Shown here in pieces: positions 8,678 through 13,849 of a DNA stretch of 64,000 bases. Under the pieces are notes generated by a model. It saw only the letters and a list, made by a program, of their open reading frames with translations. It was not told where the DNA came from and made no database searches. Source of the stretch: Bacteroidales bacterium (lineage in GTDB: Bacteria; Bacteroidota; Bacteroidia; Bacteroidales; WCHB1-69); NCBI GenBank assembly GCA_016290295.1, contig JAEETJ010000004.1:74546-138545 (forward strand), in the 5' to 3' direction. The stretch's first letter is position 1. Each line of letters starts with the position of its first letter. Both the position numbers and the translations under genes were made by a program.

Positions 8678-10231
8678 TTAATTCATCTCGATATCCCAAA
8701 CGATAATTTTGCGTTGGAGTATGGCTTGGCGACCATGGACAGCATCGCCTTGTATTGTTTCAGCCTTGGAACTTCCGTATGGCAATTCTTTAATAATCAG
8801 TTGTTTTTGTTCAATATAGCGTCTTAAAACCCCACCATTGTAGGCCTTTAACTCATTGAGCAATGAGACAATGCGGCGCTGCGACAAATGCCGGTTATAA
8901 TCGGAATTATGGAGAGAGCTGGCATAGCCTTCAATGCTCAAGGTAATACGTTGTCCCTGTGCCAAACGCTCCTCGACAAACGAAAGCAACTGCTGTACCT
9001 TTGAACGACAAGCCGCTAATGAATCATCGAAGAAACTTTCCAACCACTGTTTTTCCTCCGCATTGACCGCTGCAGCAAGATACTGTGCTTTCTGACGGCC
9101 ATACTCCATCTGCAAGGCAGCATATCGGGCTGTGGTTGTGTCTTTTAAGGTTTTAGGGTCGGGCTGGTCATTGTCGAAGTAAAGGTTGAGCGGGAAGAAA
9201 TCTTTAATGACCATGAGGACTGAATCTTGGCTGACTTCCAACGTGTCTTTTTCTTTTAACAAATTTTCCCAACGGTAAATATCATTACAGCAGGTATCTT
9301 CCCAATGCGTAGCGTCATAAGGCCGGTTGGACGACAAATATCCAGACTTACCATTCTGATTTACAGCAAAATAAATATCATTCTCCTCGGAATTAAGTGG
9401 AACACCCATATTTACTGGGGTCGTCCAACTGCACAAACCACCCTGACTGCGGAAGATGTCATAGCCTCCAATTCCAGGCCATTCGTCAGAACTGAAATAC
9501 AGCGTATTTGTGTGCACATCGTAAAAGGGGGTCACCTCATTACCCGCCGTATTGATGCCGTTACCCGCATTAATAGGAGTCTCATACTTTCCATTTTTAC
9601 AAATAGAAAACCAGATATCCATATCACCCTGGCCATTAGGGCGATTCGACACAAAATATAGTACCGCATAATCCTCCAATTCCGCCAGAAAAGGCTGGGT
9701 ACTGCTAAAATCCTTGCCATTGATGTCGCTGCCCAGCAATTCCGCTTTACCCCATTTACCCTTTTGCTTGTGACTTTCGTACAAATCACACACAAGTTCT
9801 TCATTTACAGTTCTGTAGCAACGAGAAAACACCATATAATCCTGGGCCTTGTTGAAACAGAAATTCGGATGATAATATTTCCCTTTATTAATCACCGAAG
9901 GTAAAGTTTTAACATTCAAATAGTTATCATCTTTATAATCAGCCTGATAAATCTTGCTGGACCAATGCGTATCGAAGAATAGTTCATTGTCATCATCCAC
10001 TTCCGAACGCATGGAGGAGAAGAAAAAGAGCGAATCGGAGAGCAAAAGCGGGTTGTATTCAGAGAAAGGGCTGTTGATATTGTCGGGAAGGCGGGTAATT
10101 GTGTAGGGCAAGTTGTGTTTTTTGATGCTATCCGCCAATGCTTTGCGTTCCGCCAACGACAGGCCATTCTGAGCCGACATCGTTCCGATGCAGAACACAC
10201 AGAGCAGAAGCGTGCAAACCAAAAATTTCAT
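8678..10231 (-). CDS. PD40/WD40-like repeat plus OmpA C-terminal domain protein (PorE/T9SS-type partner)
   Basis: Signal peptide MKFLVCTLLLCVFCIGTMSAQ; YFVSNRPNGQGDMDIWFS, LYFSSDEWPGIGGYDIFRS, GYLSSNRP; OmpA-like RLAQGQRITLSIEGYASSLHNSDYNRHLSQRRIVSLLNEL. The 42 upstream residues of the ORF track translate an intergenic repeat. Confidence 0.75.
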   Translation of the reverse strand: MKFLVCTLLLCVFCIGTMSAQNGLSLAERKALADSIKKHNLPYTITRLPDNINSPFSEYNPLLLSDSLFFFSSMRSEVDDDNELFFDTHWSSKIYQADYKDDNYLNVKTLPSVINKGKYYHPNFCFNKAQDYMVFSRCYRTVNEELVCDLYESHKQKGKWGKAELLGSDINGKDFSSTQPFLAELEDYAVLYFVSNRPNGQGDMDIWFSICKNGKYETPINAGNGINTAGNEVTPFYDVHTNTLYFSSDEWPGIGGYDIFRSQGGLCSWTTPVNMGVPLNSEENDIYFAVNQNGKSGYLSSNRPYDATHWEDTCCNDIYRWENLLKEKDTLEVSQDSVLMVIKDFFPLNLYFDNDQPDPKTLKDTTTARYAALQMEYGRQKAQYLAAAVNAEEKQWLESFFDDSLAACRSKVQQLLSFVEERLAQGQRITLSIEGYASSLHNSDYNRHLSQRRIVSLLNELKAYNGGVLRRYIEQKQLIIKELPYGSSKAETIQGDAVHGRQAILQRKIIVWDIEMN

Positions 10232-10251
10232 CCGATAATACATCAATTTAT

Positions 10252-10347
10252 ACAATTCACAATGCACAATGCACAATTCACAATCCCTATCCACTATCCC
10301 CTTATCTCTATCCCCCTGATCACTGACCACTGACCACTGGCCACTAC
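10252..10347 (+). repeat. Three consecutive heptamer arrays
   Basis: (AATKCAC)x4, degenerate CTATCCM run, (TGACCAC-like)x4: TGATCAC TGACCAC TGACCAC TGGCCAC. Confidence 0.8.
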
Positions 10348-12620
10348 ATAATATCAAACGGACAAGGCTCCTTGCCCAGCTTAGTAATGCGTTTCCGCTT
10401 AAACACGTAATTCAAAGACAGTTCCAGTCCTCCACGGGCATGGTTAGCGGGAACCAAACTCGACAAAGTAATGTCGTAACTAAGCCCTAAGCGCAGCCGT
10501 TGCCACTCGAAAAAAAAATCCAAAATCAGTGCGTCATTCCATCGGTAAAAGGCACCTCCCCCGATGGAAAATACCACTGTATAACTGTTTTTCATCTGAA
10601 AATACTCCACATTGGTGCCGAAAACCACCTCGTAAAACTGCTTCTGCACCTCAGCATAAACCGCAGGCTGTAGGGCCACATCATCCACCACACGAATAGT
10701 GGAAAGAAAATAAGCATTAATATTGAGTGGCAGGCGTGTCGCACGGTCGTTGAAAGCCTGATTAGGCTGCGTTAAATGCTTGACATTCACGCCAATTGTA
10801 TAGCGGTCGGTCTTGTTGGGAGAGAAATTCCACAAGGCCCCTGCCCCACAATCAAAAAAAAAGACTTTCTCTTTACCAAAATTCTCTGACACAGGATTTT
10901 CAGAGCTGAAAATATTGTTCACAAACTGCTCATCGAAGGTCATAGCACTATAGTTGATGCTGCGCTGGATAAAGCCGAAATACATGCCTATGCCCAACTT
11001 ATGCCTACTTTTGCGGCCTATTGCCTTCATGTAGGACAGGCTCACGTAGGGCTGCACGCTATTATAGCGCGAGTCGCCCGTATAATCGCAGTTGACATTC
11101 ACACCAACGCTGAACTGCTGCCGATGTTGCTGGTCACGTATCACCGGCACATCGCCATAGACGCTGAAATGAACGTAAGGCTTTGTGACAGAGAGCCATT
11201 GTGTTTTCTGGTTGGCGCCGAAGCGAAATAAACCGTCATAGCAACCCGTCTGTGCCGGATTCAGCTCCAACGGTGCAGTATAGAATTGCGAATAGTGCAT
11301 ATCCTGGGCGAAACAGAAACGGAAGCTGAACAAGGAGATAAGTAACAGAATTATATACTTGTACTTGTCTTTCCAGCAATTTTTCAGATAGCGGCGCAAC
11401 TCATTCTCGCGGGTATTGTTACCTGGCTCATAAAATTTCTTTCCGCTAATAGCTTCCGGCAGGAACTCCAAGTCGGCAAAGTTACCTGCATATTCATGGG
11501 CATATTTGTAGCCATCATGATAGCCCAGCTCCTTCATCAGCTTGGTGGGTGCGTTGCGCAAATGCAAAGGTACGGGCAGATCGCCAGTCCTTTTTACCCA
11601 TGCAATCGCCTCATCAATAGCCATATAGGAGGCATTGCTCTTTGGCGAACAGGCCAGATATACAGCGGTTTGCGACAACACAATACGAGCTTCAGGCATG
11701 CCGATATGGTGCACCGCCTGAAAGCAATTGTTCGCCAGTAGCAAGGCATTGGGGTTGGCATTGCCAATATCCTCGGAGGCGAGGATGATCATACGGCGGG
11801 CGATAAACAGGGGATCTTCGCCAGCCACCAGCATACGCGCCATCCAATACACCGCCGCATTCGGGTCGCTGCCGCGCAACGACTTGATAAAAGCCGAAAT
11901 GATGTCGTAATGTTGTTCGCCTTTCTTATCGTAAATGGCCAGATTCTTCTGTATAACCCTTGTTACCAAGTCATTGGTAATCACCAGCAAGCCATCTGTA
12001 GGCGGTGTGGCCATTGTCACCAACTCGATGGCATTGATGAGTTTACGAGCATCGCCACCGGAATAGCGCATCAGTGCCTCCACCTCCTTAAAATCTATGC
12101 GGCAGGACAAGTGCTCCTCCAGATAGCTTTTCGCTGATTGGATAATCTTCTCTAAATGAGACTTCTCTAATGATTTCAGCGTATAAACCTGACAACGGGA
12201 CAACAACGGAGAGATAACCTCGAATGAAGGATTCTCGGTAGTGGCACCTATCAGGGTCACCACACCACGCTCCACAGCTCCCAGCAGAGAATCCTGCTGT
12301 GACTTGCTGAAGCGGTGGATTTCATCGATAAAAAGGATAGATTTCTTCTCGGATTTTTCCGCCTTATCCAAAATCTCACGAATATCTTTTACCCCGGAAC
12401 TGATGGCACTCAGCATATAGAAATCCGCACCAGTCACCTCGGCAATCAGCAGGGCCAGCGTAGTTTTGCCAACGCCTGGAGGACCCCACAAAATCATGGA
12501 GTAAATGGTGTCATTCTCCAACGCTTGCCGCAACACTCCACCAGGCCCCATCAGGTGTTCCTGCCCGATGTAAGCATCCAAGGTCTTAGGTCTCAATATT
12601 TCGGCAAGGGGCTGTTGCAT
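10344..12620 (-). CDS. In-frame fusion: RarA (replication-associated recombination AAA+ ATPase), residues ~1-422, plus PorP/SprF family T9SS outer-membrane protein, residues ~423-758
   Basis: N-terminal GQEHLMGPGGVLRQAL...LWGPPGVGKTTLALLIAE...FIDEIHRFSKSQQD...GATTENPSFEV; C-terminal AQDMHYSQFYTAPLELNPAQTGCYDGLFRFGANQKTQWLSVTKPY. Uninterrupted 758-aa ORF. Confidence 0.8.
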   Translation of the reverse strand: MQQPLAEILRPKTLDAYIGQEHLMGPGGVLRQALENDTIYSMILWGPPGVGKTTLALLIAEVTGADFYMLSAISSGVKDIREILDKAEKSEKKSILFIDEIHRFSKSQQDSLLGAVERGVVTLIGATTENPSFEVISPLLSRCQVYTLKSLEKSHLEKIIQSAKSYLEEHLSCRIDFKEVEALMRYSGGDARKLINAIELVTMATPPTDGLLVITNDLVTRVIQKNLAIYDKKGEQHYDIISAFIKSLRGSDPNAAVYWMARMLVAGEDPLFIARRMIILASEDIGNANPNALLLANNCFQAVHHIGMPEARIVLSQTAVYLACSPKSNASYMAIDEAIAWVKRTGDLPVPLHLRNAPTKLMKELGYHDGYKYAHEYAGNFADLEFLPEAISGKKFYEPGNNTRENELRRYLKNCWKDKYKYIILLLISLFSFRFCFAQDMHYSQFYTAPLELNPAQTGCYDGLFRFGANQKTQWLSVTKPYVHFSVYGDVPVIRDQQHRQQFSVGVNVNCDYTGDSRYNSVQPYVSLSYMKAIGRKSRHKLGIGMYFGFIQRSINYSAMTFDEQFVNNIFSSENPVSENFGKEKVFFFDCGAGALWNFSPNKTDRYTIGVNVKHLTQPNQAFNDRATRLPLNINAYFLSTIRVVDDVALQPAVYAEVQKQFYEVVFGTNVEYFQMKNSYTVVFSIGGGAFYRWNDALILDFFFEWQRLRLGLSYDITLSSLVPANHARGGLELSLNYVFKRKRITKLGKEPCPFDIM

Positions 12621-12736: not shown

Positions 12737-13849
12737 TCAATTTTCTATATAAGTGACTTTTTTCTTTTTCAGTTTTGAGAATGAATTAATACCAATTCTT
12801 AAAGAGAAAATATGAGAATACAAGGCGATAGAGACATCGCCGATATCCGTAAAAGCGTAATCAATAGCGACAATATCCTTGATATTGAGGCCCACGCCCA
12901 GATTAATCTGGCAGGTCACCTTGGTTTTATTGTCGAAATCCGTCTCCTTCTGGAAATTGCCGATACCGGCACGCAAAGCTACAATTTTCTTGTAGGCGAA
13001 CTCCATTCCAAAATGCGGATTAAAGGTGAAATATTTGGTACTCAAGATATTATCTCTTCTTCCATCAAAAGTAAAATCCGTATTCAAGGCGAAAGTTGCG
13101 TTAAAGCCCTTTCCCAGTTCAACATATTTAGCGCCACCCATAATCAACTGGGGCACTGTCACTTCCAAAGAATTTTCTGGTATCTCGTTGCCCGTTTGCA
13201 GAAACACTTCCTTTACACGGTCGGTCAAGGTATAACTCCAAGCATTGAAAGTACCTGTACCATCTTGCAGCATTACTCCTACCTGCCATCCTTTATTCAC
13301 ATACTGCAGGCCAAAGTCCAATCCGAAGCCCCAAGCACCGGCAAAGTCACCGATACGACGACGGATGATTTTGGCGTTACCCCCCACAGACAAGCCCTTC
13401 ACTTGTTTGAAGTTATAGGCAAAACTCAGCAGGAAAGCATTGTCGGCAGCAGAGAAATAGGAGATGCGGTCATAATCGATATTGCCGTAATTATCAATCA
13501 GTTCAGTGGTATTCATAATATTATCCACTCCAAAGCGGATATAGCTGAAGGCCACGGTGAACGAAGAGTCGATTTTATATGCCGCGCCAGCATAATCATA
13601 TTTGGAGATACCCGCAAAATACTCGGCATGCATGGCGGACAGTTGCAGTTTCTGCTGCATTCTGCCCAAGCCTGCAGGGTTCCAGTAGGCAGCCGTCACA
13701 TCATCGGAAATGGCCACCATGGAATTGGAAAATGCCAAACCTCGCGCTCCGACACCCAATGAGAGAAATGCATTGCTGTACTTCGCCGTTTGTGCATAAC
13801 TTGCTACAAACAGCCCGAAAATCAACAACAAAGCAACTATTTTTCTCAT
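12737..13849 (-). CDS. PorV/PorQ family protein (T9SS-associated beta-barrel)
   Basis: Signal peptide then SLGVGARGLAFSNSMVAISDDVTAAYWNPAGLGRMQ. Confidence 0.8.
   Translation of the reverse strand: MRKIVALLLIFGLFVASYAQTAKYSNAFLSLGVGARGLAFSNSMVAISDDVTAAYWNPAGLGRMQQKLQLSAMHAEYFAGISKYDYAGAAYKIDSSFTVAFSYIRFGVDNIMNTTELIDNYGNIDYDRISYFSAADNAFLLSFAYNFKQVKGLSVGGNAKIIRRRIGDFAGAWGFGLDFGLQYVNKGWQVGVMLQDGTGTFNAWSYTLTDRVKEVFLQTGNEIPENSLEVTVPQLIMGGAKYVELGKGFNATFALNTDFTFDGRRDNILSTKYFTFNPHFGMEFAYKKIVALRAGIGNFQKETDFDNKTKVTCQINLGVGLNIKDIVAIDYAFTDIGDVSIALYSHIFSLRIGINSFSKLKKKKVTYIEN

Follow-up and report, generated by a model that had tools for sequence, protein, structure and literature searches.

A RarA–PorP fusion conserved in a family of Bacteroidales is probably a polyprotein processed at an internal signal peptide

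FbcH, the cytochrome b-c1 precursor of Bradyrhizobium, is a polyprotein that is split by signal peptidase. In the case of the anti-sigma factor RsiP, signal peptidases cut outside the membrane, and this cut precedes the site-2 cleavage (PMC8844934). In both systems, the site used by signal peptidase follows an internal signal or a membrane segment and lies outside the membrane, and the cut parts a cytoplasmic or membrane-side N-terminal portion from an exported C-terminal portion, as it would also do in the RarA–PorP protein described here. The portions themselves are of another kind: in FbcH or RsiP, a membrane protein or anti-sigma factor forms the N-terminal portion, whereas RarA–PorP begins with a soluble DNA-repair ATPase and continues into an outer-membrane barrel. 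Escherichia coli RarA (3pvs) is alike in the AAA+ core, the AAA_assoc_2 and MgsA_C domains, and all four motifs checked, but it ends there, and an export signal and a barrel are present only in the fusion. PorP is a 14-stranded barrel, and in P. gingivalis, PorP and PorE were found in complex with type B CTD cargo (PMC9143113). The fused barrel resembles PorP/SprF proteins and PorP–PorE pairs in its family models, its 14 predicted strands, its PorE-like neighbor, and its Q-rule site, but it follows RarA without a start codon or n-region of its own, and it is a paralog and not the PorKLMN-adjacent PorP. RarA proteins of the PRK13341/NF009881 type also carry a C-terminal extension in one chain; these models, 599–736 long, aligned over the RarA part only, and the extension has no match to the PorP part. 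To our knowledge, no internal signal peptide is known for this type of RarA. A RarA–PorP fusion was not described in the literature that we searched.

The fusion is encoded on a 64,000-nucleotide stretch of a Bacteroidales genome (the window; contig JAEETJ010000004.1), where a single ATG-initiated frame of 758 codons, without any internal stop, extends on the minus strand from 12620 to 10344. This agrees with a preliminary description of the window, made from the sequence alone, which had reported an uninterrupted 758-residue frame with Y422 at 11355–11357; the codon (11357–11355 on the minus strand) specifies the last residue of the RarA part. The proposed order of RarA and PorP/SprF domains was likewise borne out by Pfam and NCBIfam matches above cut-off: Pfam detected AAA, AAA_assoc_2, MgsA_C (residues 249–414), and then PorP_SprF (residues 436–737), all far past the cut-off. 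The RarA/MgsA part (residues 1–422; 11355..12620, minus strand) is a complete AAA+ ATPase with an MgsA_C domain, for which E. coli RarA (PDB 3pvs; phmmer E=8.9e-111) is the best relative of solved structure. The same structure was the top Foldseek match (E=6e-28), with low TM-scores, as the model has multiple domains and modest confidence. The mature PorP/SprF-type barrel (residues 439–758 including the stop codon; 10344..11306, minus strand) reached 113.6 with PF11751 (cut-off 22.3), and 153.5 and 156.5 bits with TIGR03519 of NCBIfam (cut-off 90.55). In the AlphaFold2 model (pLDDT 71 and pTM 0.41 for the whole model), the barrel half, for which a FadL-like fold of 14 strands would be expected, has 14 beta-strands with pLDDT values mostly between 65 and 92, and helices at residues 403–417 and 419–431 span the junction with low local confidence. 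No second RarA was found in the genome to which the window belongs, and the fused copy is its only rarA.

Downstream of the fusion lies a PorE-like/CHU_0125-like gene of the OmpA family (8678..10357, minus strand; these are frame bounds, and the true start is unsure), which adjoins the fusion in most relatives checked for synteny. Between the two genes, at 10250–10345, there are short tandem-like repeats (ACAATTCACAATGCACAATGCACAATTCACAAT; CTGACCACTGACCACTGGCCAC). The upstream neighbor is a PorV2 gene of the PorV/PorQ type (12737..13849, minus strand; NF052325, E=1.1e-137), which occupies this position in the window's genus only. On contig C23, PorKLMN is accompanied by its own PorP; the genome also encodes full-length SprA and, on contig C72, a further PorP-like gene. 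The fused barrel was considered as the core PorP of the type IX secretion system and rejected, as a different PorP-family gene precedes porKLMN on C23; with another PorP-like gene on C72, the fused barrel is a third PorP-like paralog that is not linked to PorKLMN. It probably serves a subset of cargo. The CTD hits of the type IX system in this genome comprised 75 of type A (73 above cut-off) and 17 of type B (13 above cut-off), which is a large number of cargo proteins for a genome of 3.2 Mb.

The preliminary description had suggested a search for the same architecture in related genomes, and of 104 genomes from the family, 59 carry the in-frame junction. They are distributed over 9 of 17 genera, with 58–98% protein identity, and include contigs that cut off one end and one genome with a stop codon in the RarA N-terminus. 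All nine genomes of the window's genus have the fusion, with 80–98% identity to the window, and in other families of the order (393 genomes, 207 genera) there was no match at E <= 1e-200. The named records are uncultured Bacteroidales, many of them from the rumen, other ruminant gut compartments, or horse faeces. All fused loci, possibly with one exception, derive from metagenome assemblies; judged by its name, the record OttesenSCG-928-B11 would be a single-cell genome. Both halves are under purifying selection, as the pN/pS values within the window's genus are 0.077 for RarA and 0.16 for the PorP barrel, and the Walker A, Walker B, sensor 1, and GDAR motifs are intact in 57 of 57 fused proteins. 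An assembly or sequencing error, or a very recent loss of a stop codon in this strain, had been offered as an explanation in the preliminary description. We regard this as practically negligible, since the identical junction is shared by tens of assemblies that different studies produced independently and is conserved across nine genera, which excludes chance or sequence error, and no support for an error or recent stop loss was found at the locus. The fusion is virtually certain to be real, and the earlier proposal of a genuine fusion that needs processing is supported. In one metagenome assembly (L045/L072, G072), a TAA at about RarA codon 15 breaks an otherwise intact fusion.

Relatives in which a stop codon and a separate porP start divide the two halves had been named as evidence that would speak against the fusion. 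Such relatives do exist, and they do not refute it, since they mostly nest inside the fused clade and thus read as secondary fissions. In the RarA tree, all fused rows and some split ones fall into one clade (SH-aLRT 99), and the RarA and PorP trees agree that most split forms are nested within the fused clade. In genus g8, several split lineages adjoin fused sisters in both trees (L103/L105 and L109; L102/L112 and L100; L108 and L099), with L099, L100, and L109 present in the PorP tree only. In the split relatives, RarA terminates with the tail residues seen in the fusion, a stop codon is located exactly after a KYxY motif, and porP follows with its own start and signal peptide. For groups that were named after inspection of the trees, AU tests rejected a clade made up of the fused rows only (p about 1e-106), and a clade of the fused rows together with the split rows of genus g8 was not rejected (p 0.57). 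The simplest account of these sequences is one old fusion and, later, several fissions, as all fused junctions agree to the residue and the AU tests fit. Independent fusions are unlikely given the residue-identical junction. The origin requires no more than a chance fusion of neighboring genes, and the repeated fissions show that the fused state is not required. Three split loci (L023, L123, L126) have no porP nearby and may represent an outgroup or a loss. In the split loci L102, L103, L105, and L109, the rarA–porP gap of about 0.8–2.7 kb contains a toxin–antitoxin-type insert. This is HigB with an HTH partner in L102 and a Gp49-like toxin with an HTH partner in L103, with the families confirmed in both cases, and similar frames are present in L105 and L109; in L103, L105, and L109, a frame 5' of porP resembles a remnant of the HigB C-terminus. 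The gap of L112 contains other frames.

The junction was compared in 57 different fused ORFs. The KYxY motif is invariably followed by 16–19 residues with a hydrophobic core (L019 aside), a small residue, and Q (57/57), and the residue at position −1 of the predicted cut is A in 42, G in 10, S in 3, and T in 2 of them; in L019, the predicted site is LQA|QD. In Bacteroidetes, substrates of signal peptidase I as a rule have Q behind the cleavage site (PMC5837995), and the signal peptide was predicted from motif and hydropathy. In the window, the core and cleavage region comprises residues 423–438 (IILLLISLFSFRFCFA; 11307..11354, minus strand), with a predicted signal peptidase I cut at A438|Q439. 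The arrangement is not that of an N-terminal Sec signal peptide with its own start codon: the signal sequence is internal, the start is unconserved, and the porP-like half has no n-region, the KYxY end of RarA directly abutting the hydrophobic core. The RarA end in the fused ORFs follows the consensus RENELRxYLxxCWxxKYxY, with a tail net charge of +2 to +4 in all relatives, and this basic tail (residues 405–422 in the window, ENELRRYLKNCWKDKYKY; 11355..11408, minus strand) probably replaces the PorP n-region in an internal Sec signal peptide. Programmed slippage at the T-run of the core was also considered and is not general, as 17 of 57 loci, mostly of one genus, have a run of 10 T, and the window's genus has 3–5 T. 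In one member of the fused lineage (L106, RGIG6723), an 11-T run in the hydrophobic core causes a one-base frame shift where close relatives have 10 T, which may reflect slippage, mutation, or an assembly error.

On this basis, we propose, with a probability of about 65%, that RarA–PorP is a polyprotein processed at its internal signal peptide. The fusion, which is fixed in one lineage of uncultured Bacteroidales, would be translated into a single chain, of which the RarA portion would fold in the cytoplasm, and the internal signal would be targeted co-translationally and inserted by Sec in an N-in/C-out orientation. Signal peptidase I would then cut before Q439, the freed barrel would proceed to the outer membrane, and RarA would retain a short C-terminal hydrophobic membrane anchor, which a site-2 protease of the RseP type may later trim to give soluble RarA. 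Signal peptidase I and an RseP-type protease are both encoded in the window's genome. The polyprotein is favored by a single open frame with the same open junction in 59 of 104 genomes, by the conserved cleavage site with Q at +1 in 57 of 57 ORFs, by the basic tail, by the purifying selection on both halves, by the nesting of most split forms in both trees, and by internal starts that are not conserved. It has to be weighed against this that tethering to the membrane would be unusual for a replication-fork protein such as RarA, and that the repeated fissions show the fused state to be dispensable. That both parts are intact and in frame would also suit an uncut full-length fusion as the working protein, with RarA at the inner membrane, or a cleavage elsewhere; we consider this very improbable, as a link of about 16 residues is unlikely to hold an outer-membrane barrel and a cytoplasmic ATPase together across the periplasm, and as the Q of the cleavage site is conserved in all 57 cases. 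Hardly better are the prospects of a cytoplasmic protease that cuts the KYxY tail before export and leaves PorP to be exported via a normal N-terminal signal peptide: KYxY is indeed invariant, but RarA normally ends with it in split and unfused relatives as well, and its conservation therefore needs no protease.

The more serious competitor, although clearly the less probable one, is internal initiation, in which porP would be translated alone from non-AUG or lineage-specific codons in the 3' end of rarA, perhaps from a promoter inside rarA, and the RarA–PorP read-through would be a by-product. The window has no ATG or GTG near the junction, as the preliminary description had noted; the TTG at 11333–11331 that it gave as the only one is accompanied by a second in-frame TTG at 11399–11397 (L408; 11397..11399, minus strand), located 15 codons ahead of the hydrophobic core. 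This second codon, which is unconserved in relatives, is the sole plausible internal start near the junction and the candidate in the window; initiation there would yield a normal-looking signal peptide (MRRYLKNCWKDKYKY-IILLL...). Across the relatives, this leucine is encoded by TTG, CTG, CTT, CTC, or TTA. TTG at this Leu-15 position is somewhat frequent (24 of 57 loci, the window and 23 of 56 others, against 14.7 expected), whereas TTG at Leu-11 is rare (7 against 14.7 expected), and the rows behind these counts are not independent. Together with a slightly lower synonymous change over the RarA tail (codons 401–420) in the window's genus, the Leu-15 excess makes lineage-specific internal starts possible. 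In E. coli, a promoter that serves the next gene is located within rarA (PMC9012371), and an internal transcript from within rarA is thinkable by analogy; a promoter and terminator scan gave numbers near chance. A conserved internal start codon was rejected on the codon tables of the 57 loci. Between 20 codons ahead of the core and position +2, ATG and GTG are absent in 33 of 57 loci, and ATG, GTG, and TTG are all absent in 12, whose nearest in-frame start lies within RarA by 29 to 61 codons. Nor are starts enriched overall, as 45 loci have one of the three codons near the junction and 43.8 are expected from each gene's own codon use. Moreover, RarA, which lacks a stop codon of its own, would still be produced only as a fusion. 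Of the earlier idea of internal initiation, a conserved start is disfavored and lineage-specific starts may exist, and it is the weaker branch since no start codon is conserved.

Why the fusion has been kept in many lineages may have to do with the anchor: it is conceivable, albeit doubtful, that the fusion was retained for its tethering of RarA at the inner membrane, with one anchored RarA for each PorP barrel exported. If this were true, envelope export and replication-fork repair would be coupled in amount and place, and the site-2 protease would set the amount of freed RarA. Gene callers and domain annotation would be prone to treat RarA–PorP as an error; it is probably a naturally occurring bacterial polyprotein of long conservation, in which a DNA-repair ATPase of the cytoplasm and an outer-membrane protein are joined. 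RarA–PorP offers a direct test of a cleavable signal peptide behind a folded domain of 420 residues, a test of whether a membrane-tethered RarA works, and a test for the cost of the fused state in genes that have been repeatedly fused and split within one clade.
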